A stretch of DNA of 64,000 bases from Chloracidobacterium sp. N. GTDB taxonomy: Bacteria; Acidobacteriota; Blastocatellia; Chloracidobacteriales; Chloracidobacteriaceae. The DNA is taken from positions 2,385,819 to 2,449,818 of the forward strand of contig NZ_CP072642.1 in assembly GCF_018304765.1 (NCBI RefSeq), given 5' to 3'. Positions 43,181 through 56,887 of the stretch are shown here, piece after piece. The notes below the pieces were generated by a model that saw only the letters and a program-made list of their open reading frames with translations, was not told where the DNA came from and did no database searches. Each line of letters opens with the position of its first letter. Within the stretch, counting starts at the first letter, position 1. Made by a program: the position numbers and the translations under genes.

Positions 43181-44722
43181 GCGGCCCCCGGACTGCTGCA
43201 CTTTCCCTTCGCGCGTCAGCTTCACGAGATGTGCCTGTACCGACCGTGCGGCCAGCGGGTGCAGCGCCGCCGGCGTGTCGGCATACACCACGGCCACCAG
43301 ATCGGCGACCGTCGTCGCCCCGGAACGCAGTGCAGCCAGAATGGACTCTTCCCGCTGCTGGCGATGGGTCAGGTAAGCCGCCAGAACTGCCTGCGGCTCG
43401 CCCAGCGCCGGCCCGTGACCGCCCGCAATGAGCTGCACCGGCAACGACTGAAGCCGCCGCAGCGAAGCGAGGTATGCCGCCATATCGCCCTCATCAGGAT
43501 CAATGAGCACGCTGCCCAGCCCCACCACCATGTCGCCGCTGAGCAGTGTGCCGGTCGTTTCCTCGAAAAAGCACAGATGGCCCGGCGCATGACCCGGCGT
43601 AAACACTGCGCGCAGCCGCCAGCCGGGCCAGCCCGGCGGCGTGGTGCTCCACCTTCCCATGGCCGGCGACGCCGGGATGAACTGCCCGTCGCCGTCGGCC
43701 AGCCACTGTGAAACCTGTACCTTGCCTTCCAGCAGCCGGGCAGTGATGGGATGGGCGGCAACCGGCACATTCCAGCGCCGGCTCAAGTGGGCGGCTCCTC
43801 CAACGTGATCGGGATGGTGATGGGTCAGCCAGATGGCCGTCACCCGCGCACCACATTGTTCGGCCAACCACGTCAGATGGGCATCGAGGCGTGCCTGCTC
43901 TTCGGGGTAGGGTGAAGCCGGATCAATGACGACCAGTTCCCGGTCGCCCACCAGGTAGCAGTTCGTATGCGTGGCCGGCGGCAGGGTCGGCGTACGAACC
44001 GGAAAGGTGACGATCCCCGGCGCCAGTTCGATAAAAGCTGGCGGCTCGCCATGAGCGGCAGGATGATCATGTAGCAACTCGCGCAGACGCTGGAAATCCT
44101 CCCGCCCGGCAAAACCTTCGGTCGTCCAGCGCAGCAGGCTGCGGACGCTGTGCAGGGTTGGCGGCACAAGCCGCACCGCGCCCTGCGCCCAGGCGGCCAT
44201 GGCTTCCGCTGGCGTCACCCACTGTCCGTCCACCATTTCATCGGGCCAGAGTTCGGGTTCGTCCGCGCCGTCGAGCCGGCTGACGAAAAACGTGGTGTCG
44301 TAGCGGCGCGGGACACCCACCGGCGTCACCCATCGCCCGCCCGGGATGAGGCGGCGCGCGTCAATTTCGACGGCAAAACGCGCACACACTTCGGCAAAGG
44401 TCAGGCGGCCGGCCATCAGGTCGGCGCGTACGGCCAGCCGCGTTTCGGGCGCAGTCAACCGGCTTTCGGCCAGCAGGATGCCCGCTTCCTCGAAGACCTC
44501 GCGCACCGCACATGCACACTGGGCGGCGTGTTCCGGGTCGGTGGCGTGGCGTACGGGTACCTGTTCGTCTTCCGGGTCGCGGCGACCACCCAGAAAGGCG
44601 TGGTAGCCGCCGAGAAAGGGCGCAGCCTGGGCGCGCCGGGCCCAGAAAAAGCGCCAGTCGCCGGCTTCATTCCGGCGCAGTAGGATCACAGCCGATGCGT
44701 ACTTGGGAACAACAGAAGTCAT
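43157..44722 (-). CDS. Nudix hydrolase fused to an MBL-fold hydrolase
   Basis: 521 residues. Residues 1-220 are a Nudix domain with box residues GG...REVFEEAGILL, resembling the acyl-CoA diphosphatase-like branch. Residues 235-450 are an MBL-fold domain with WLTHHHPDHVGG, TPGHAPGHLCF and SGDMVVG, similar to LACTB2-type hydrolases, followed by a winged-helix-like C-terminus (VQAHLVKLTREGKVQQ). Linking the two domains suggests sequential hydrolysis of one metabolite (inference). The ATG overlaps the divergent ATG of the TonB-domain gene at a shared CATG. Confidence 0.88.
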   Translation of the reverse strand: MTSVVPKYASAVILLRRNEAGDWRFFWARRAQAAPFLGGYHAFLGGRRDPEDEQVPVRHATDPEHAAQCACAVREVFEEAGILLAESRLTAPETRLAVRADLMAGRLTFAEVCARFAVEIDARRLIPGGRWVTPVGVPRRYDTTFFVSRLDGADEPELWPDEMVDGQWVTPAEAMAAWAQGAVRLVPPTLHSVRSLLRWTTEGFAGREDFQRLRELLHDHPAAHGEPPAFIELAPGIVTFPVRTPTLPPATHTNCYLVGDRELVVIDPASPYPEEQARLDAHLTWLAEQCGARVTAIWLTHHHPDHVGGAAHLSRRWNVPVAAHPITARLLEGKVQVSQWLADGDGQFIPASPAMGRWSTTPPGWPGWRLRAVFTPGHAPGHLCFFEETTGTLLSGDMVVGLGSVLIDPDEGDMAAYLASLRRLQSLPVQLIAGGHGPALGEPQAVLAAYLTHRQQREESILAALRSGATTVADLVAVVYADTPAALHPLAARSVQAHLVKLTREGKVQQSGGRLQLADVA

Positions 44723-45707
44723 GGTGAATCAGAGGGCGCCGGTGTGGCCGCAACGTTCACAATACACGCTTGGGGCGCACCACGTCACGTATTGTTGGTT
44801 GTGGTTGTTGCTGGTTGGGCTGTGGGGAGGCTGCCTGTGGGCGCTGCCGGCCGGTGCCAGGCCGCTTCCGGCCGGGCTGTTTGTGTCGGATGAGCCGCTG
44901 ACGGTGGCTGTTCTGCCGCCCGACATCGCCGACGACGTGGGCGGTGTTACGTCGGAAGGGCTGCTGGCGGCGCTGGAGCAGGCTTTGGCACGGGAAGGGC
45001 TGGAAGTAGTGCCACGCGCACAGGTGTTTGCGGCAGTCCCAGCCGGCAGGCCGCTGGATTTCAACCCGACCTGTACGGCGGCGCAGGCGCTTGGGGCGCG
45101 GGTGGGCAGCGAAGGCTACGTGCTTGTGCGGCTGCGGCGGGGCGAACGCAGCCTTTCCGACCGGCAAACCATAGTGGGCGGGACGCTGCATCTGTTCGCG
45201 GTGGAAACCCGTACGGGGCAGCTTGTCGCCAGCGAGCATGTGGATTTCATCGAGGGAAAAGAAGGGTTTTTGCCGGCGGTGGCAGCAGGCATCGAAGCGG
45301 CGGCGCAGCGTTTTGCAGCGGACTGGCGGCGGGTGCGGGGACAGACGCCGGGGATGGGGTGTGCGGCGGGCGGGGATGGTGCCGACGAGGTGCTTGACTT
45401 GCGGGACGGGGTGTTGCCGCCCGGCGTGACCGCGCCGGTGCCACTGGTGCGGGCGCGCCCGGAGCCGACCGGACTGGCGCGGGCGGCGGGTGTCACGGCG
45501 ACGGTAATGGTTGAAGTGTGTGTTGGCCGGGACGGGCAGGTGCGGGAGGTGGCAGTGGTGCGTTGGGCAGGGTACGGGCTGGAAGCGGCGGTGGAGAAGG
45601 CGTTGCGGGCGGTGCGCTTCCGGCCGGCCTTGCGGCAGGGGAAACCTGTCGCGGCGTGGTTTGTGGCCGCGTTCAACTTTCGGTCATCGCCTGCGGATGA
45701 CCGGTAG
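44721..45707 (+). CDS. TonB C-terminal-domain protein
   Basis: 328 residues from the ATG at 44721 (a start at 44703 is possible). A hydrophobic N-terminal segment (YCWLWLLLVGLWGGCLWA) is followed by an alpha/beta region of about 180 residues that resembles CsgG/FlgO-like lipoproteins in pattern (LAVLPPD..., LEQALAREGLEVV), then a TonB C-terminal domain (VMVEVCVGRDGQVREVAVVRWAGYGLEAAVEKALRAVRFRPA). The usual Pro-rich spacer of TonB is missing, so it is unlikely to be a standard energy transducer. The transposase gene follows 13 bp downstream. Confidence 0.78.
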   Translation: MVNQRAPVWPQRSQYTLGAHHVTYCWLWLLLVGLWGGCLWALPAGARPLPAGLFVSDEPLTVAVLPPDIADDVGGVTSEGLLAALEQALAREGLEVVPRAQVFAAVPAGRPLDFNPTCTAAQALGARVGSEGYVLVRLRRGERSLSDRQTIVGGTLHLFAVETRTGQLVASEHVDFIEGKEGFLPAVAAGIEAAAQRFAADWRRVRGQTPGMGCAAGGDGADEVLDLRDGVLPPGVTAPVPLVRARPEPTGLARAAGVTATVMVEVCVGRDGQVREVAVVRWAGYGLEAAVEKALRAVRFRPALRQGKPVAAWFVAAFNFRSSPADDR

Positions 45708-45720
45708 TGTGGAGGGGGTT

Positions 45721-46173
45721 ATGGCCAACACATACAGTTCGTTGTTCTACCACGTTGTTTTCAGCACAAAGCAGCGGACGAAGTTCATTCGGCCGGAAAT
45801 TGAGCAGCGTGTTTGGGCTTACTTGGGGGGTGTGGCGTCCCGGCAGGGGGCAAAGGCAGTACAGATTGGGGGTGTGGAGGATCATGTTCACGTGCTGCTG
45901 ATGGCGCCGCCGACAGTTTCGCCGGCGGAGCTTGTCAGGCGGATCAAGGGGGATTCGTCGCGCTGGATACACGAGGTGTTTCCGGAGTTGCGGAACTTTG
46001 GTTGGCAGGACGGGTATGGGGTGTTTTCGGTGAGCAGGTCGAATGTGCCGCAGGTGGTGAAATACATTCAGAACCAGCGTGAGCATCACCGGGTGCAGAC
46101 GTTTCAGGAGGAATATCTGTTGTTTTTGAAGAAGCACCAGGTGGCGTACGACGAGCGGTATCTGTGGGGGTGA
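45721..46173 (+). CDS. IS200/IS605-like HUH transposase, RAYT-type
   Basis: 150 residues, the size of Y1 transposases. The HUH motif is H55-V-H57 in GGVEDHVHVLL and the catalytic Tyr is Y115 (VVKYIQNQ). The start at 45721 has a strong GGAGGGGG ribosome binding site. No tnpB accompanies it. Ten bases after the stop come two REP-like hairpins in direct orientation, and cluster 2 continues for 2.2 kb. A REP-associated tyrosine transposase that acts on single-stranded hairpins is therefore likely (inference). All catalytic residues are present, so it may be active or domesticated. Confidence 0.88.
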   Translation: MANTYSSLFYHVVFSTKQRTKFIRPEIEQRVWAYLGGVASRQGAKAVQIGGVEDHVHVLLMAPPTVSPAELVRRIKGDSSRWIHEVFPELRNFGWQDGYGVFSVSRSNVPQVVKYIQNQREHHRVQTFQEEYLLFLKKHQVAYDERYLWG

Positions 46174-46183
46174 GGAACAACCT

Positions 46184-46234
46184 GGGAGCGCGGGCGTCCC
46201 GCCCGCATCCTGGGAGCGCGGGCGTCCCGCCCGC
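46184..46234 (+). repeat. Two direct REP-like elements after the transposase gene
   Basis: Identical 23-base elements at 46184-46206 and 46212-46234, each with GGAG on the left followed by GCGGGCG-TCC-CGCCCGC. The first starts 10 bp after the stop codon at 46173. Confidence 0.9.
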
Positions 46235-48415
46235 ATGAATCCAATGGATGGCATTTCAACCGTCGCTGACGCGACGGGGGGGGTTGGGGGGCGTCTGCGA
46301 TCCGTGGGTTGAAACCCACGGCTAAATTCAATCGTCGCTACGCGACGATGGGGATTCCACCAGCGATGGGTGGTTGCCCGGATGCAATGATGCGGATTTT
46401 GGGATACCTACGCCGTGGGGCGGAAACCCATTGGGACGTGGGACGAAAACCCGTGGACGTGGAACGGAAACCCGTGGGACATGGGACGGAAACCCATGGG
46501 CCGTGGGTCGTTGGTTGTGGGTTGCAACCGCATTTTTGCCGCGTAGCGGCAACGGAATTTTGCCGTGGGTTTCAACCCACGGATCACGGTCGCCCCCAAT
46601 CATTTTCCGTCGCGTCAGCGACGGTTGAATTCCACTGTGAATGCTAATCCGTTGTGTATCCGTACGGTGACGCCCACATTCCTGTGTGTGGGGGATGCCC
46701 GTGTTGTTTGGTGATATTCAACCGCGATCCGTGGGTTGAACCCATACCCCGGCGTTGAAACGCCGGGCTAAATTCAACCGTCGCTGACGCGACGGGGGGG
46801 GTTGGGGGGCGTCTGCGATCCGTGGGTTGAAACCCACGGCTAAATTCAATCGTCGCTACGCGACGATGGGGATTCCACCAGCGATGGGTGGTTGCCCGGA
46901 TGCAATGATGCGGATTTTGGGATACCTACGCCGTGGGGCGGAAACCCATTGGGACGTGGGACGAAAACCCGTGGACGTGGAACGGAAACCCGTGGGACAT
47001 GGGACGGAAACCCACGGGCCGTGGGTCGTTGGTTGTAGGTTACAACCGCATTTTTGCCGCGTAGCGGCAACGGAATTTAGCCGTGGGTTCAACCCACGGA
47101 TCGTGGGTTCACCCACGATAGGTTTCAACCCACGGAATTTTTGCCGCGTAGCGGCAAATGAATTTTGCCGTGGGTTTCAACCCACGGATCACGGTCGCCC
47201 ACCAATCATTTTCCGTCGCGTCAGCGACGGTTGAATACAACCCTTGTGATGTGAACGGAATGGCCACCGGAAACACCCCTTGGGTTGATTCCACCCGCAC
47301 GAATCCCCGACGGACGGCATTCATCCGTCGCTGACGCGACGGGAACCAATTGGGGCGACGTGATCCGTGGGTTGAAACCCACGGCAAAAATCAACCGTCG
47401 CTGACGCGACGGGGGCATTGGGGGCATCGCGATCCGTGGGTTGAAACCCACGGCTAAATTCAATCGTCGCTACGCGACGATGGGGATTCCACCAGCGATG
47501 GGTGGTTGCCCGGATGCAATGATGCGGATTTTGGGATACCTACGCCGTGGGGCGGAAACCCATTGGGACGTGGGACGAAAACCCGTGGACGTGGAACGGA
47601 AACCCGTGGGACGTGGGACGGAAACCCATGGGCCGTGGGTCGTTGGTTGTGGGTTGCAACCGCATTTTTGCCGCGTAGCGGCAACGGAATTTAGCCGTGG
47701 GTTCAACCCACGGATCGTGGGTTCACCCGCGATGGGTTTCAACCCACGGCAAAAATCAACCGTCGCTGACGCGACGGGGGCATTGGGGGCATCGCGATCC
47801 GTGGGTTGAAACCCACGGCTAAATTCAATCGTCGCTACGCGACGATGGGGATTCCACCAACGATGGGGGGTTGCCCGGATGCAATGATGCGGATTTTGGG
47901 ATACCTACGCCGTGGGGCGGAAACCCATTGGGACGTGGGACGAAAACCCGTGGCCGTGGGCCGTTGGTTGTAGGTTGCAACCGCATTTTTGCCGCGTAGC
48001 GGCAAATGAATTTTGCCGTGGGTTTCAACCCACGGATCACGGTCGCCCCCAATCATTTTCCGTCGCGTCAGCGACGGTTGAATTCCACCGTGAATGCTAA
48101 TCCGTTGTGTATCCGTACGGTGGCGCCCACATTCCTGTGTGTGGGGGAGATGCCCGTGTTGTTTGGTGATATTCAACCGCGATCCGTGGGTTCACCCACG
48201 ATGGGTTTCAACCCACGGAATTTTTGCCGCGTAGCGGCAACGGAATTTCGCCGTGGGTTTCAACCCACGGATCACGGTCGCCCCCAATCATTTTCCGTCG
48301 CGTCAGCGACGGATGAATCATCACGTGACAAACCCACCACATCGCCGGGTTGGAATCCCCCCTCGTCGCGTAGCGACGGAACTGGAACGCGGGCAAGATG
48401 CCCGCGCTCCCAGGG
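46184..48415. repeat. Hairpin-repeat cluster 2
   Basis: 2.2 kb without a supported gene between the transposase and the delta-60 genes. About 14 CGTCGC/GCGACG hairpins alternate with GTGGGTTGAAACCCAC-type hairpins. Four copies of the composite element run in reverse orientation (46332-46582, 46850-47135, 47464-47749, 47829-48035; the last lacks an internal part). Non-hairpin pieces of about 105 bp are repeated at 46628-46735 and 48086-48190. Short open frames here are repeat translations. Confidence 0.92.
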
Positions 48416-48506: not shown

Positions 48507-51500
48507 TTACGGTACCCACTTGCCGATGACCGGTCGGTCAGTCGGCACACCGTAGTTCACCGTCAGGTTCGCCGGACCAGCCGAGTTGCTGTTCCGCAGG
48601 AAGAACGTCCCCGTACGGAACACCCCGATGGTCGTCACACCATCGCCATCCCAGTCGCCAGCCACCGCCACATCGTTCGGGTTGCCGAAGAAGAACTGGA
48701 GGTCAGGCGCACCGGACGAGTTCGTGTTGCGCAGCGCGAAGAACCCAACGCTCGCCCGGTACAGACCAATGGTCGTCACACCATCACCGTCCCAGTCGCC
48801 TACGATGGGCGTATCGGTCGGCAGCGCGTAGTTGATGATGATGTCCGCCGGGCCGGATATGTTGCTGTTGCGCAGCAGGAAGACCCCTGCCCGGAACAGA
48901 CCCACGGTCGTCGAGCCATTGCCATCCCAGTCGCCCGCAATCGGAATGTCTCCCGGCTGCGTGCCGTCAATCGCAAAGGCTGGCACCGTCGCAAAGCCCG
49001 CCGAGTTGCTGTTGCGCAGGAAGAACTGACCGTTCCGGAAGATGCCGATGGTCGTGACGCCGTCCGCATCCCAGTCGCCCGAAAGCGGCACGTCATTCGC
49101 CGTACCATAGAAGAAGTCGGTATCGGCATTGCCGGAGGTGTTCGAGAAGCGCAGGTAGAAGAAGCCGTTCGACGGACGGAACATACCCACCGTGTCCGGA
49201 CCGCTGTCCGGCGCCTGCGAGACCGTCACCGTCTGCGACGGCGCACCCTGCGTCGTCACCGTGATGGTGGCCTGCCGCGCCGCACCGCTGTTGCGGCCGA
49301 CCGAGAAGGCAACCGTACCCGTCGGGCCACCCGACGCGCCACCCGTGATGACCAGCCACGGCGCACTGCTCGTCGCCGTGTAGGTGCATCCCGAAGAGGT
49401 CGTCACCGTGAACTGACCCGTGCCGCCCGTCACCGGAAGCGAAGTGCCTGTCGCCGTGCCGAGCGTCAGCGTGCAGGTACCCGCCTGCGTGATGGTGATG
49501 TTCTGCCCGGCTACCGTGACCGTCGCCGAGCGTGGCGAACCCGTGTTTGCCGCCACCGTGAAGTTCACCGTGCTCGAACCGGAACCGCTCAACGGACTGG
49601 CCGAAATCCAGGTCGGGAGACTCGTAGTCGGGATCGTCCAGGAGCAACCAGAACCGGTCGTAATCTGGAACTGACCCGTGCCGCCAGCCACAGGGAAGCT
49701 CGCCGGCACGGCCGTCGCCGTGTACGTGCAGCCCGAATCCGGACCCTGGGTGAATTCGAAGATGATGGTCCTCAATTCTGGCGGCGTGACGGTTTCACTC
49801 GGCAGCGTCACCGTCACCGAACCCGGCCGGTTCGCCCCTGTGTTGTTGGGGGAGAGATTCACCACGATGTCCACAAAGCCCGGATTCGTGCTGCGCGGCA
49901 CCGCCCCCACGATGGTGACAAACGGCGAGTTCGTCGTGATCGTCGGGGTGAGGTTGCACAGCGAAACCGCGCTGCGGGTCATCGTGGCAATGACCATCTG
50001 GCCACCGGCCGGGTTCATTGCACCCAGGGGGATGGGGGGAGGCGGCGGGCCGGGCGGCGGAACCGGCGGGCCGGGCGGCGGAATCTGCGGGAAGGGAATC
50101 GGCTGGGAGGGCGGGAAGCTCGGCTGGACCAGCCCGTAGGAGCAGCCCGAACCGTTCTGCAACGCCGCGACACCGGGCCACCGGATGTCGAGGTTCAGCC
50201 CGTTGGGAGTGCCGGCACCGTCATTCTGGAAGTCGGCGCGCACCGACTCGAAGGTGTTGAACAGACCGCCAATGTAGGCCCGCCGCCGATCCGGATCGAG
50301 CGTGATGGTGTTCACCGTCATTCTCGTATCGGTGTAACGGAGACCGAAGGGTGGTGTCTGGTTGAAGGGCAGGTTGGGATAGTAGCTGATTTCTGAAGTA
50401 GCTCCTGGTGGTAGTGGTGGCGGTGGTGGCGTCAGGCCGCTACCAACTCCCGGGAAGGCACTGCCCGGGGCAAAAATGGAAGCCAGCGATCCCAGAGGAA
50501 GCACAGGCGGCGGGAACCCGCCAAACCCGGCCGCCAGGGCCACAGCATAGGGGCCAGGCTGGAAGACCAATGGCGCATTGGGGTTCTGCCCAACGCCCGG
50601 CGGCACCGCCAGCCATGTGGACAGAAAGGTTGCCTGTGGGACAGACGGGTTGTAAGGCGGCGCCGGGGGTGGCGGCAGGAAGGGGTTCAGGGCATCACCA
50701 AACTCCCCGTTGACACCCGTCCGGTGGACGCGCGCCCGCGTCCGGTTGTTGATGTAACCGATACCATCGGTTCCGGCAAGGTTCCGCGGCCCGATAAGGA
50801 ACGGCCCGCCAATGATGGGCCTGTCATCTGACTTGACAACAATCGTCCGCACTGTTGCAAGAGGATCAAGGTTGACACCAAACGGAAACCGCAAACCGAA
50901 AATATCATATTCTGGTTGCTGACCTGGTGGCTGACTGCGGCGCCCCCCTAGGAAAGTGTTATCCAGTCGCCCGTTGTCTCCAAGCAATCGGGTAAAGGCC
51001 ACACACACGGTGGGGGTTCCACTGCTGCCACCAGGATTGACAATGCTCCGGAACTGTCCGCCGATGAGAATCTTCCCAGCGTTGCTGCCAAGGGACTGCC
51101 GCGCCAAGGCAAAAACTTCACCGCCACGGCCGTTGGAGGTAGCACCTTGGTTTGGCCCCGTGGGTGGATCTGTCGGCTGAGGGGGAAGGAAAGCGTTTGG
51201 CGGCACAAAGCCGGAAGTACCCGTAGCGAAGTTTGCTCCAGCTTGGGCAAAGCTCGTATCCAGCGTACCATCACTATTGAAGCGGGCAATGTTGTAGCGG
51301 TCAACGTTATTGGCACGTGCAAACAATCCGCCAACCACAACCTTGCCATCCGGTTGCAGCAGAATGGCATTGACCCGCGCCCGGTTGTAAGCCACGAGTG
51401 GAATACCTTGGAAGGTAGCATTGCGCGCAATGCCTGTAACTACTGCCCCACCCGGATTGCCACAGAGCAGGTAGTCACCTACGCCGGGAATCGAGAAAGA

Positions 51501-51857
51501 TGAATCGCCAAAGGTCGGGTCCAGCGAACCGGTTGACGTGAGACGGGCAATCCCACCGCGCGGCACTTCGTTGTAGCACTTGAACTCCCCGCCGATGAGC
51601 ACCTTGCCGTCCGGCTGGAGTACAATGGCATTCACGCGGCCTTCGTTGGGGTTGTACTTCTCACCAGTGCCAGGGACGGGACTGGGGTTACTAGTACCGG
51701 GGTAAACCGGCGGGGCACCACAAGTACCGACCGGCAACGGCTGGATGCGCTCGGGGTCAACTGTAGTGAAACCAACGCCGGGTGCGCCAAAGCCGGTCGG
51801 ACCGCCCTTGCGGATGGATGTGTAGCCCGGCGGCGGGTTGGGATCATCCTGCCCCAC
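48507..51857 (-). CDS. Delta-60/BACON/FG-GAP repeat protein, 3' part of a split frame
   Basis: 1116 codons starting at a GTG that directly follows, in the same frame, the TAG ending the upstream gene. No signal peptide. Order: delta-60 repeats (VNAIVLQPDGKVLIGGEF..., INAILLQPDGKVVVGGLF), a Pro/Gly-rich region, two BACON-type domains (CSWTIPTTSLPTWISASPLSG, CTYTATSSAPWLVITGG), then FG-GAP-like repeats (GDWDGDGVTTIGLYR, FFLRNSNSAGPA). Such proteins are secreted adhesins or carbohydrate-binding surface proteins. Without its own signal sequence it could be exported only as a fusion with the upstream part. Two hairpins and a terminator follow the stop. Confidence 0.8.
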   Translation of the reverse strand: MGQDDPNPPPGYTSIRKGGPTGFGAPGVGFTTVDPERIQPLPVGTCGAPPVYPGTSNPSPVPGTGEKYNPNEGRVNAIVLQPDGKVLIGGEFKCYNEVPRGGIARLTSTGSLDPTFGDSSFSIPGVGDYLLCGNPGGAVVTGIARNATFQGIPLVAYNRARVNAILLQPDGKVVVGGLFARANNVDRYNIARFNSDGTLDTSFAQAGANFATGTSGFVPPNAFLPPQPTDPPTGPNQGATSNGRGGEVFALARQSLGSNAGKILIGGQFRSIVNPGGSSGTPTVCVAFTRLLGDNGRLDNTFLGGRRSQPPGQQPEYDIFGLRFPFGVNLDPLATVRTIVVKSDDRPIIGGPFLIGPRNLAGTDGIGYINNRTRARVHRTGVNGEFGDALNPFLPPPPAPPYNPSVPQATFLSTWLAVPPGVGQNPNAPLVFQPGPYAVALAAGFGGFPPPVLPLGSLASIFAPGSAFPGVGSGLTPPPPPLPPGATSEISYYPNLPFNQTPPFGLRYTDTRMTVNTITLDPDRRRAYIGGLFNTFESVRADFQNDGAGTPNGLNLDIRWPGVAALQNGSGCSYGLVQPSFPPSQPIPFPQIPPPGPPVPPPGPPPPPIPLGAMNPAGGQMVIATMTRSAVSLCNLTPTITTNSPFVTIVGAVPRSTNPGFVDIVVNLSPNNTGANRPGSVTVTLPSETVTPPELRTIIFEFTQGPDSGCTYTATAVPASFPVAGGTGQFQITTGSGCSWTIPTTSLPTWISASPLSGSGSSTVNFTVAANTGSPRSATVTVAGQNITITQAGTCTLTLGTATGTSLPVTGGTGQFTVTTSSGCTYTATSSAPWLVITGGASGGPTGTVAFSVGRNSGAARQATITVTTQGAPSQTVTVSQAPDSGPDTVGMFRPSNGFFYLRFSNTSGNADTDFFYGTANDVPLSGDWDADGVTTIGIFRNGQFFLRNSNSAGFATVPAFAIDGTQPGDIPIAGDWDGNGSTTVGLFRAGVFLLRNSNISGPADIIINYALPTDTPIVGDWDGDGVTTIGLYRASVGFFALRNTNSSGAPDLQFFFGNPNDVAVAGDWDGDGVTTIGVFRTGTFFLRNSNSAGPANLTVNYGVPTDRPVIGKWVP

Positions 51858-53858
51858 CTAGAAGAGCGGATCGATATTTCCGTTACTCATCAACCGCACC
51901 AGATTGTTCCACGGCACAAAGCCCGGACCGTCGGAAACCTGGTTGAACTGCCCGCCGACGTAAATCCGGCCCTGTGGGTCAATGGCAATGGCACGGATAG
52001 AGGCTGGGTCAGTCCGATCCACGCGCCGGAAGCCCATGTTAGGGGTACGGTTGATATCTTCCGACGGGTCAACAAAGGCACCATTGTCAATATCGTTACG
52101 GACAAGATAGCCCGCAACATTCCTGAACCGTGCGACAACTTGTACGTCACCACAGGGTGAGATGCGGTACAGCTCGGCTATATTTCCTAGTCCCGGGTCA
52201 GCATCAGTACCAGGATCGGGTCCAACATCTCCACCGATGTACAGGTTACCATTACCATCAATGGCTGAGGCATAGAACTGAGTGGGACCCAGTTGCAGCG
52301 TAAGATTCGCCAAGAGATCCAAAGATGGCAAACCTGTTGGGGTTGGTGGGTTGTAGTTGGAGTTGAAAGTCGCTACCAACTTCTCGCCATTGGAGTTGAG
52401 CAAATCCCCGCCAAACAGCGCCCCGTTGGTACTGTTGGCGGCCATGGCCCGCACCACCGCCGGGTTCGGCGGGAAGAAGGGCGAGGCCGTGCCAAGAGTG
52501 CCTAGATAAGCACCCGTCGTCACACTCAGGGCGGCATCACCAAAAGCGGTGGCGGTTTCCTGCCCGCCAGCGTGCAGCAAGGCTGTCCCGGTCACAAAGT
52601 TCGGCGGTCCAGCCGTCAGCACCAGCGCCCGCACCGGGTTGGGAATGAGCCCCCCTGATACGGACCCCACCGGCCCGGTCACGCCAAGGAAACCATCAAA
52701 CCCGGCCACCCGGGCGCGCGGAACCGGTGCGCCGCCAAAGCCAAAAGCATTGCTGAACTCCCCGCCTGCATAAATAAGACTCGGAGCCAGTGTGTTGTTC
52801 ACCGCCAAGGCATTGACCGGAGCATCAAAACCAGAGAAGAAGTTGCCAAAAAACAGTCCTGCGGGATCAGCTGCCCCAGTCAGATCAAAAAGGGTTACAT
52901 TTCGGGTGTTGTTGAGATTCACAAGCCCACCCGAACTCTGGGTAAAGGCCCCCCCGACAACCACTCCCGGATTCCCAAACCCGGTGTCGTTGACATACTT
53001 GATAGCCCGGACAGGACCGCCGACACTGGCCTGAAAGAATGGAGCAGTCTGCGGCCCCCAGAAGAAAGTGTTGTCAAGAGTGCCCGTCGGGTTGAGGCGG
53101 GTGAAGAAGGGACGGGTGTCCAGCGGCGGTGCCGGTGGCGGTGGCTGGATGAAAGCGCCACTCCCCAATCCGACGTAAATGCGGTTAGCGGGATCTGTTT
53201 CCACCGCCAGTACCGGACCGGTAATGGCCATCGTCGTGTTGATGTTGTTGTTGAAGGCACCGTCAGCCATACCGGACGGCATTAACCGGAACAGCCGGGG
53301 CGCTGTCTCACGGCCGACCACGATGCGGTCCAGCGAATCCACGGCCAGGGCATTGATGGGGCCGGGGTCAGGATTGCCACCCGTCGTAGGTCCTTGAAAT
53401 GCGGGTGGGGGCACAAAAGTCGTGTCTATCGTGCCGTTCGGATTCAACCGCATGATGTGGCGGTACACCGTCGTCGTATTCGGCACCCGGTACTCGAAAT
53501 TGCCGGCAACGATGAACTTATTGGCGTTGATGCCTAGATTCTGCACCGCAATGGCGCGGATTTCACCTTTCCTGGCAACAATTCTTTGGAGTGTCCGCTG
53601 GATGCCGATCTTGTTAATCAAGGCAGTCGGATCAGTCAACAAGGTTGGCCTTGGATCGTTGTAGCCGGAGGCTGGATTGCCATACCCAAAACTCCGGTCG
53701 GTGCTACCCGGCCCGGCACCCAGACCTAAGATTGCAGGGGGATTGTTACCTGGTGGGCATTGCCCATACGCGGTTCCGCCGGCGCCAAAGACCAGCAGCA
53801 CCGCCCACGCAAGCAGCCATCGGAAGGATGGCGCTCTAAGATGCTGATGAGAGATCAT
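51858..53858 (-). CDS. Secreted delta-60 repeat protein, 5' part of a split frame
   Basis: 666 residues from the ATG at 53858, with a perfect AGGAGG five bases upstream. A signal peptide (RWLLAWAVLLVFGAGGTAYGQ) precedes many delta-60 repeats (IRAIAIDPQGRIYVGGQF, LVRLMSNGNIDPLF). The stop is a TAG placed where the next delta-60 repeat would continue, and the same frame goes on for 1116 codons. So this is either the N-terminal part of one gene of about 1,780 codons broken by a nonsense change, or a true short form. Secreted or outer-surface location. Confidence 0.8.
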   Translation of the reverse strand: MISHQHLRAPSFRWLLAWAVLLVFGAGGTAYGQCPPGNNPPAILGLGAGPGSTDRSFGYGNPASGYNDPRPTLLTDPTALINKIGIQRTLQRIVARKGEIRAIAVQNLGINANKFIVAGNFEYRVPNTTTVYRHIMRLNPNGTIDTTFVPPPAFQGPTTGGNPDPGPINALAVDSLDRIVVGRETAPRLFRLMPSGMADGAFNNNINTTMAITGPVLAVETDPANRIYVGLGSGAFIQPPPPAPPLDTRPFFTRLNPTGTLDNTFFWGPQTAPFFQASVGGPVRAIKYVNDTGFGNPGVVVGGAFTQSSGGLVNLNNTRNVTLFDLTGAADPAGLFFGNFFSGFDAPVNALAVNNTLAPSLIYAGGEFSNAFGFGGAPVPRARVAGFDGFLGVTGPVGSVSGGLIPNPVRALVLTAGPPNFVTGTALLHAGGQETATAFGDAALSVTTGAYLGTLGTASPFFPPNPAVVRAMAANSTNGALFGGDLLNSNGEKLVATFNSNYNPPTPTGLPSLDLLANLTLQLGPTQFYASAIDGNGNLYIGGDVGPDPGTDADPGLGNIAELYRISPCGDVQVVARFRNVAGYLVRNDIDNGAFVDPSEDINRTPNMGFRRVDRTDPASIRAIAIDPQGRIYVGGQFNQVSDGPGFVPWNNLVRLMSNGNIDPLF

Positions 53859-53908
53859 TGTGTCCTCCTCATAGAAACTTCTGCTGGTTGACTGAAGTAC
53901 GGCTGCGC

Positions 53909-53937
53909 ACGATACGCACACCGCGAAGCGATGTCAA
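53909..53937 (-). promoter_or_regulatory. Candidate sigma-70 promoter of the delta-60 locus
   Basis: On the minus strand TTGACA (53937-53932) and TATCGT (53914-53909) are 17 bases apart, about 50 bases before the ATG at 53858. Confidence 0.55.
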
Positions 53938-54615
53938 CCGAATGGTTTACTCGAATACCAGTCTTCATGTGCACGACTACGAACTGGTAGCCCCAAAAAA
54001 TTTCCGCCAACGCTAGCCCTTCTGACATGTGCGCGTCAAGCCAGGCGTTGTGCCGGTCACGTTTGCTCCGAAGCGTTATGCCTTTGCCGGAACCATAAGG
54101 CCACTCACCTCCTCGAAGATTTCTACCCCGTGATCAGCGGTCACGTGGCGACCGCCCTCCGGTGCGGTTGAGTACCGGAGGGGCACAACGCCGCCAACTG
54201 GCCGGTTGTATCCCTGTCCACACGACACCCCCGGCGCGACGCCGGAAAGGAAGAGGGGCGCCGACGGACAGACCGGACGCGCTCCTAGCCAGCCGCGCGC
54301 TGCGGTTCGGCTGGAGAGCCAGTTCCACCTTGTGCCGGTATTGAATAGGTGGGACTGCCTGAAAAAGCAAAGGCAGCCAAAAAGCTTCACAGGACAATGT
54401 TATAGAAAGCACAACACGAGACTCCAGAAACAGCGCTGGACGGCAAAGCGGGTTTGCAATCCGAAGCTGACGACCTGGCCAACCTGGCGCCGCCCATCAG
54501 GATGCGGAGACGTTGTTGCATAGTTTCAAGATGACTCTGGGCGGCACTCTATTACAGCGTTTGCGGGCGTGTCAAAGGTTTTCTTGGCGGGTGTTACCGT
54601 GGGGTAACGCTGCGT
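53938..54615. other. Long region upstream of the delta-60 locus, no recognised gene
   Basis: On the minus strand CCTCCGGT/ACCGGAGG and GCGGTC/GACCGC form two neighbouring hairpins (54130-54180 region). A GAGGAGGT ribosome-binding-like sequence and a six-codon frame MVPAKA follow (about 54076-54115). Frames of about 100 codons here show no family features. It could be a leader or decayed mobile DNA. Confidence 0.4.
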
Positions 54616-55790
54616 GGGAGCGCGGGCATCCTGCCCGCGTGGGCGTTGGGCATCGCACGATCCGGGGGTTGGAATCCGTTACGGGTTTGAACCTACGTTA
54701 TGTTCAGGCGTCGCTACGCGACGCGGGACGATTGGGGGGAACATCCTCCCCCGGCGTTGAAACGCCGGGCTAAATTCAACCGTCGCTACGCGACGGGCCT
54801 GGGAGCGCGGGCGTCCCGCCCGCACAAATCCCCAACGGATGGCATTCAACCGTCGCTGACGCGACGGGGGATGGCGGGGGCGCTGCGACCCGTGGGTTAA
54901 AACCCATCGTGGGTGAACCCACGATCCGTGGGTTGAAACCCACGGCTAAATTCATTTGCCGCTACGCGGCAAAAATTAGGTATCCTAAAATCCGCATTGT
55001 TGTGTGCGGGCAATCACGACACCGCCGGGTTGAAATCCTCCCTCGTCGCGTAGCGACGGCTGATTTTAGCCGTGGGTTTCAACCCACGGATCACGTCGCC
55101 CCAATTGGTTCCCGTCGCGTAGCGACGGATGAATGCCATCCGTTGGGGATTTGTGCGGGCGGGACGCCCGCGCTCCCAGGGGTTCCGGTGGCCATTCCGT
55201 TCACATCACAAGGGTTGTATTCAACCGTCGCTGACGCGACGGGGGGATGGGGATCGCCCATGATCCGTGGGTTGAAACCCACGGCTAAAATCAATCGTCG
55301 CTACGCGACGAGGCGGGTTTCAATTCGGCGATGTGGGTTGGGGTCACGGGATGATTCAACCGTCGCTACGCGACGGGCCTGGGAGCGCGGGCGTCCCGCC
55401 CGCATAAATCCAACGGATGGCATTTCAACCGTCGCTGACGCGACGGGGGGGGTTGGGGGGCGTCTGCGATCCGTGGGTTAAAACCCATCGTGGGTGAACC
55501 CACGATCCGTGGGTTGAAACCCACGGCTAAATTCATTTGCCGCTACGCGGCAAAAATTAGGTATCCTAAAATCCGCATTGTTGTGTGCGGGCAATCACGA
55601 CACCGCCGGGTTGAAATCCTCCCTCGTCGCGTAGCGACGGCTGATTTTAGCCGTGGGTTTCAACCCACGGATCACGTCGCCCCAATTGGTTCCCGTCGCG
55701 TAGCGACGGATGAATGCCATCCGTCGGGGATTCATGCGGGCGGGACGCCCGTACTACCAAGCTTGCGGGCGGGACGCCCGCGCTCCCAGG
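54616..55790. repeat. Hairpin-repeat cluster 3
   Basis: No supported gene. REP-like elements lie at 54616, 54801 and 55765, the last in sense with the WD40 gene that ends at 55814. Two nearly identical composite elements of about 270 bp are placed 581 bp apart (54890-55160 and 55471-55741). CGTCGC, TTGCCGC and GTGGGTT hairpins alternate between them. Confidence 0.92.
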
Positions 55791-55813
55791 GAAGGTGCCC
55801 GCGTTCCCTGGTG

Positions 55814-56887
55814 CTACGTGGCAACAACGGCCACCAACACCTCCCCCTGCGCGCCGCCTACCGCCAAACGCACACCGTCGCTGCGCCACGCCAGATATGC
55901 CACGCCGCCAGCCACGTCATACCGCCCCACCGGCGACACCGTCCGGCCGGGCTTCTCCGGCGGACGCCACACCAACACCCCATCCTCCGCCCCCGACGCC
56001 AACACTCCCCCATCAGGACAGTACGCCAGCGCCGTCACCAGCCCGCTGTGCCCTTCCAACACAATTGGCGTCGAACCCGCCGGCCCGTCTCCGGCAAAAT
56101 CCCACAGCGTGACCGCCGCCCCACCACCCGTCGCCAGAAACCGCCCCGCCGGATGCCACGCCAACTCCCGCACCTTCACCATGTAGCCCGACATCACCAG
56201 GTCCTCTCCGGTCGTCACATCCCAGACGTGCACCGTGGCGTCCTGATCGCCCGCCACCAGATACCGCCCCTGCGGCTGCCACCGTACCGCCAGATGCGAA
56301 CGCTTCCAGGCAAAGACTTCCGCCGGCAGGTCAGCGCCCGGCGTCCAGACCGTCAGCAGCCCATAACACGCCGTCACCAGACACCGGCGCTGCGGATGCC
56401 AGTGCAGGTCGGCAATCGTACTCGTGTGGCGCAGATGCTCACTGATGAGGTCGCCCGTGGGCGTCCAGAAACGCAGGACCTTGCCGGCCGCCGAAGCGAG
56501 CATCGCCGGCGCGCCATCCTGGTAAGGTGGACTCCACGCCACCCGCTCCACCCACGCCGCACCCGCCGGCAGGCTCGCCCGCTGGTCGCCGGTCGTTGGC
56601 TCCCACAGGCACACCTGCCGGTCCTGCCCGCCGGTGGCGAGTACCGTGCCGTCCGCTGACCAGCTTAGCGTCATGCCGCCCGTCCGGTGCGCCGCGCATG
56701 ACCAGCGCTGCTCCCCGGTTGCGCCGTCCCAGACCGTCAGCGTCCCGGCCGCCGACAGGGCCGCCAGATGCCCGCCATCCGGCGCCCATTCCAGCGCCAC
56801 GACGCCATCATCCAGCACCGCCTGCCAGTCCACTTCAAGCTGGCGGGTCGCCCCTTTCAGAAACGCGGCAATCGAAGGCAAACGCAC
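55814..56887 (-). CDS. WD40 repeat protein
   Basis: 357 residues from a GTG at 56887 with GGGGGAGG about ten bases upstream. At least seven WD-like blades (LTVWDGATGEQRW, VCLWEPTTGDQR, VHVWDVTTGEDL, VTLWDFAGDG, VLVWRPPEKPG) would close one propeller. No signal peptide. It begins 27 bp after the stop of the COG0523 GTPase gene and probably shares its transcript, so a part in metal delivery is possible (inference). It ends just before REP-like elements. Confidence 0.88.
   Translation of the reverse strand: MRLPSIAAFLKGATRQLEVDWQAVLDDGVVALEWAPDGGHLAALSAAGTLTVWDGATGEQRWSCAAHRTGGMTLSWSADGTVLATGGQDRQVCLWEPTTGDQRASLPAGAAWVERVAWSPPYQDGAPAMLASAAGKVLRFWTPTGDLISEHLRHTSTIADLHWHPQRRCLVTACYGLLTVWTPGADLPAEVFAWKRSHLAVRWQPQGRYLVAGDQDATVHVWDVTTGEDLVMSGYMVKVRELAWHPAGRFLATGGGAAVTLWDFAGDGPAGSTPIVLEGHSGLVTALAYCPDGGVLASGAEDGVLVWRPPEKPGRTVSPVGRYDVAGGVAYLAWRSDGVRLAVGGAQGEVLVAVVAT

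Follow-up and report, generated by a model that had tools for sequence, protein, structure and literature searches.

In-frame stop codons in bacterial genes have been considered as functional elements: stops under purifying selection are described as widespread in bacteria, from cases that rest on stops common to two or more genomes (PMC7918605), and readthrough at the present locus could draw support from them. Known bacterial pseudogenes with one nonsense mutation present a simpler picture: a single stop in one genome, relatives in which the gene is unbroken, and a remnant frame that is still intact. The locus considered here, in strain N of Chloracidobacterium, is a gene for a long exported protein of the delta-60 (DUF5122) repeat type, interrupted by one in-frame TAG. 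A recent nonsense substitution in the strain N gene, truncating the protein after 666 codons, probably accounts for it.

The window, that is, the whole stretch of DNA that was analysed, is 64 kb long and covers positions 2,385,819-2,449,818 of contig 1, in a genome of two contigs and 3,715,176 bp. The interrupted gene occupies 48507-53858 of the window on the minus strand, as do all the parts of it described below. Translated from the ATG at 53858 to the terminal TAA at 48507-48509, it comprises 1783 codons plus the terminator, with a sole internal stop, the TAG at 51858-51860 (residue 667). The upstream half (51858-53858), contained in an ORF at 51858-53921, runs for 666 codons counted from that ATG and ends at the TAG. 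It has a Shine-Dalgarno sequence, GAGGAGG (53864-53870), ahead of the ATG, and begins with a hydrophobic leader, MISHQHLRAPSFRWLLAWAVLLVFGAGGTAYGQ (53760-53858), judged by inspection to be a putative Sec signal peptide and nearly conserved in the alignment of orthologues; the first delta-60 repeats follow. A GTG at 51857 abuts the TAG, and the same frame is then open for 1116 codons (the downstream half, 48507-51857), as the initial annotation had said and translation confirms. Its statement that this half lacks a signal peptide, and has the GTG directly after the stop, is also accurate: no signal peptide was seen on the downstream product.

The composition of the two halves, from translation, domain matches and a profile derived from the repeats of the protein itself, is that of one array of beta-propeller-type delta-60 repeats cut in two. 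DUF5122 (Pfam PF17164) scores above its gathering cut-off of 27 bits in both (48.2 and 95.7 bits), as in recognized delta-60 proteins. The locus differs from these in that the array runs on across a stop and in that NCBIfam TIGR02608 falls below its curated whole-protein cut-off of 76.5 bits, with 41.4 and 72.6 bits for the separate halves; the orthologue in strain CP2_5A, at 47.7 bits, is below it as well. The repeat profile bears out the earlier placing of the TAG inside a delta-60 repeat: residue 667 is near the end of a strong unit at residues 619-672 (51843-52004), in the motif DPLF*, close to the unit boundary. Past the TAG the array resumes, with repeats at residues 740-788, 827-877, 913-972 and 1001-1060. 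The stop thus cuts off the last part of one unit in an array that goes on beyond it, and does not separate two complete proteins, which favours a nonsense mutation. Beyond the repeats, the downstream half carries BACON and BACON_2 domain matches (49212-49628) and, from homology search, a C-terminal repeat domain of about 230 aa (48516-49199) that is common to several other proteins of the genome. A phmmer search of PDB sequences gave no match, and an AlphaFold2 model of the repeat region in the CP2_5A orthologue (1079 aa, from a two-sequence alignment), meant to show whether a propeller is cut by the stop, was set aside at a mean pLDDT of 30.

Orthologues were found in three of six congeners: strain B (1733 codons), CP2_5A (1669 codons) and a third genome, G006 (1642 codons). 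Each is one uninterrupted frame across its full length and across the site of the stop. The other three congeners have no full-length counterpart; the gene is absent from them or unrecognizable. Because both halves of the strain N gene align end to end with a single uninterrupted frame in each of the three orthologues, the split-gene pattern is not a matter of chance. The homologue comparison proposed in the initial annotation gives a sense codon at the site in every case: GCT, CAG and CAA, inside the motif IDPLF-x-(V/P)G; none of the three genomes has two separate genes, each with its own signal peptide. The stop is therefore private to strain N among the genomes compared. Wider scans added little: the upstream protein matched nothing in a scan of genome contigs, the four-way alignment matched CP2_5A alone, and a pattern scan of viral contigs for the sequence around the stop gave no match. 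Proline-rich insertions are also seen in the strain N gene that are missing from all three orthologues, with 109 unique inserted residues downstream of the stop and 39 upstream.

With the same gene unbroken in three related genomes, the change is most likely strain- or species-specific, an ordinary inactivating point mutation with no recoding trick. TAG is one transition away from CAG, and CAG to TAG would be the simplest substitution. Translation from 53858 would then end after 666 codons, and the remaining repeats would be lost together with the BACON domains and the C-terminal domain; the 1116 codons downstream would be an unexpressed or barely expressed remnant, whose frame would still be open because the mutation is young. 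The chance that a random substitution in the downstream half makes a stop, 0.0187, bears on its age. Under neutrality, a further stop there becomes as likely as not at a divergence of about 1.1% and nearly certain at 4.8%, so the open frame fits a young mutation. The intact frame is, however, equally expected if the stop is an assembly error or is read through. We infer, then, that the cell really carries this base, that the truncated product does not function and that the mutation arose recently. Among the options that the initial annotation had listed, nonsense mutation is favoured, since all three orthologues are uninterrupted and have a sense codon at the site; programmed readthrough and phase variation lose ground, and sequencing error persists as a rival.

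That last is the main one: a single wrong base in the assembly consensus of strain N, the gene being truly uninterrupted. We consider it unlikely. Errors that remain in a long-read consensus are for the most part insertions or deletions; the change here is a substitution, with the frame intact throughout. The perfectly open downstream frame is nevertheless what an error would leave. Strain N, a hot-spring bacterium from Mushroom Spring, was sequenced with PacBio Sequel and assembled with Canu, a single platform, and the methods mention no short-read polishing; strains 2, A, E and S are reported at 99.6-99.9% ANI to it (PMC8245765). Against an error-prone assembly, 2541 bp of neighbouring sequence align with strain B with zero net length difference. 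Interrupted frames elsewhere bear on the same point. Over about 0.8 Mb of chromosome 1, orthologous frames of strains N and B were set against each other, each strain serving in turn as the reference; many raw interruptions proved to be antisense frames and were discarded, and coding-like frames, with differences mainly at third codon positions, were kept. In N, five to six of these have in-frame stops relative to B, and in B a similar number have them relative to N, so that interrupted frames are not clearly commoner in N. The interruptions use TAG, TGA and TAA, in counts that are small and with some frames doubtful. As far as these sequences go, the survey shows neither an excess of TAG nor an error-laden N assembly. 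A second in-frame TAG of strain N is at G000:C1:2585661 (L125), in a frame of 746 codons whose strain B counterpart is unbroken, 98% identical and has TGG at this position; it is another candidate nonsense mutation or error.

Functional readthrough, in which a near-cognate tRNA reads the UAG at a basal or programmed level and yields short and long exported forms, is quite improbable. The positive evidence for it at the locus is the frame that stays intact for 1116 codons past the TAG, and nothing else. The stop is in no other genome compared, unlike the published cases. Genes for tRNAs were found with the Rfam tRNA model and checked with ARAGORN: among 44 with assigned sense anticodons (the published count is 47), none has the CUA anticodon that would read UAG, and one weak tRNA-like match without an assigned anticodon stands beside them. 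Programmed readthrough loses support on three counts: the other genomes compared lack the stop, the search turned up no suppressor tRNA, and TAG interruptions are not in excess in the 0.8 Mb surveyed. More broadly, interrupted frames are about equally few in N and B and all three stops are used, so nothing in the sequences examined points to TAG recoding in strain N. Nor does the locus look like two genes. The GTG abuts the TAG, and the downstream half could in principle be made as a second protein by termination and reinitiation at 51857; no Shine-Dalgarno sequence was seen ahead of this GTG or of the next in-frame starts, the downstream half has no signal of its own for export, and the orthologues are one gene. 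Reinitiation is accordingly very improbable indeed.

The stop lies within a more unusual feature: the array itself is hypervariable. The segment at 49883-53680, with the TAG inside it, differs strongly between the two strains, yet its flanks are nearly identical in N and B: 99.2% identity at 43668-46208, 95-97% at 54257-56759 (the gene's start side, partly repetitive), and 99% for a neighbouring CobW-type protein. Over all frames the median identity of N and B is about 96%; for this protein it is 58.5%, and only two of the 348 syntenic frames of 300 aa or more score lower. Third-position identity at conserved residues reaches 0.82 at the 5' end of the gene and 0.85 over its final quarter; in the repeat array the value drops to 0.54, close to the range of 0.44-0.48 found with distant congeners. 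Silent sites of the array are almost saturated even in the comparison with strain B. To judge from these figures, the array looks to have undergone either replacement or rapid diversification in the lineage of N or of B; divergence of this kind between flanks that are mostly 95-99% identical suggests allelic replacement or diversifying selection. Hypervariability is a property of some surface proteins, and might recommend the stop as an on/off switch of this one. The stop is, however, a plain substitution; the sequence at 51840-51880 is non-repetitive, with no simple-sequence repeat at the TAG, and no invertible or slippage-prone element was seen at the site, which leaves a phase-variable switch scarcely credible. 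A long shot would be that the UAG serves as a low-level readthrough switch at a locus under diversifying exchange: the cell would export mostly the short repeat protein and, rarely, the full-length form with its BACON and C-terminal domains.

The neighbourhood contains further repeated DNA. Acido-Lenti-1 (RF01687, listed as an sRNA in Rfam) is present in about 50 copies in the genome, in a few clusters; the largest adjoins the only full-length Y1 (IS200-like) transposase gene of the genome, at window positions 45718-46173 on the plus strand. Rfam matches to Acido-Lenti-1 lie at 46302-47844 and 54750-55670, and further ones within the window are at G000:C1:2424938-2425514 and 2446601-2447897. 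Among 20 relatives, all 12 genomes with Acido-Lenti-1 have a homologue of the transposase, a count taken over related genomes and so not of independent cases; six without the homologue, five of them congeners, have no Acido-Lenti-1. In one contig (G018:C37) the two are at most 300 bp apart. A possible alternative to the sRNA label is that Acido-Lenti-1 is the REP-type hairpin of a RAYT transposase.

As mechanism, the interrupted gene carries little weight: one candidate for bacterial recoding is removed, and the two annotated halves are better treated as a single gene with an interruption. Of more use is what emerged about the locus itself, which encodes a large exported repeat protein that is hypervariable between two genomes of nearly identical background. 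That it varies in this way between N and B, and is lost or unrecognizable in half of the congeners examined, suggests diversifying selection or allelic exchange acting on a surface feature. With the conserved in-frame stops of the Belinky type (PMC7918605) the strain N gene has in common an in-frame TAG with downstream homology kept, and CAG, the alternative codon in one such example, is the codon in one orthologue here; the difference is that no second genome among those compared shares the strain N stop. From the known pseudogenes with one nonsense mutation nothing essential separates it: the single stop in one genome, the unbroken relatives and the intact remnant frame are all present, in a gene that happens to be hypervariable and whose product has putatively lost its function.
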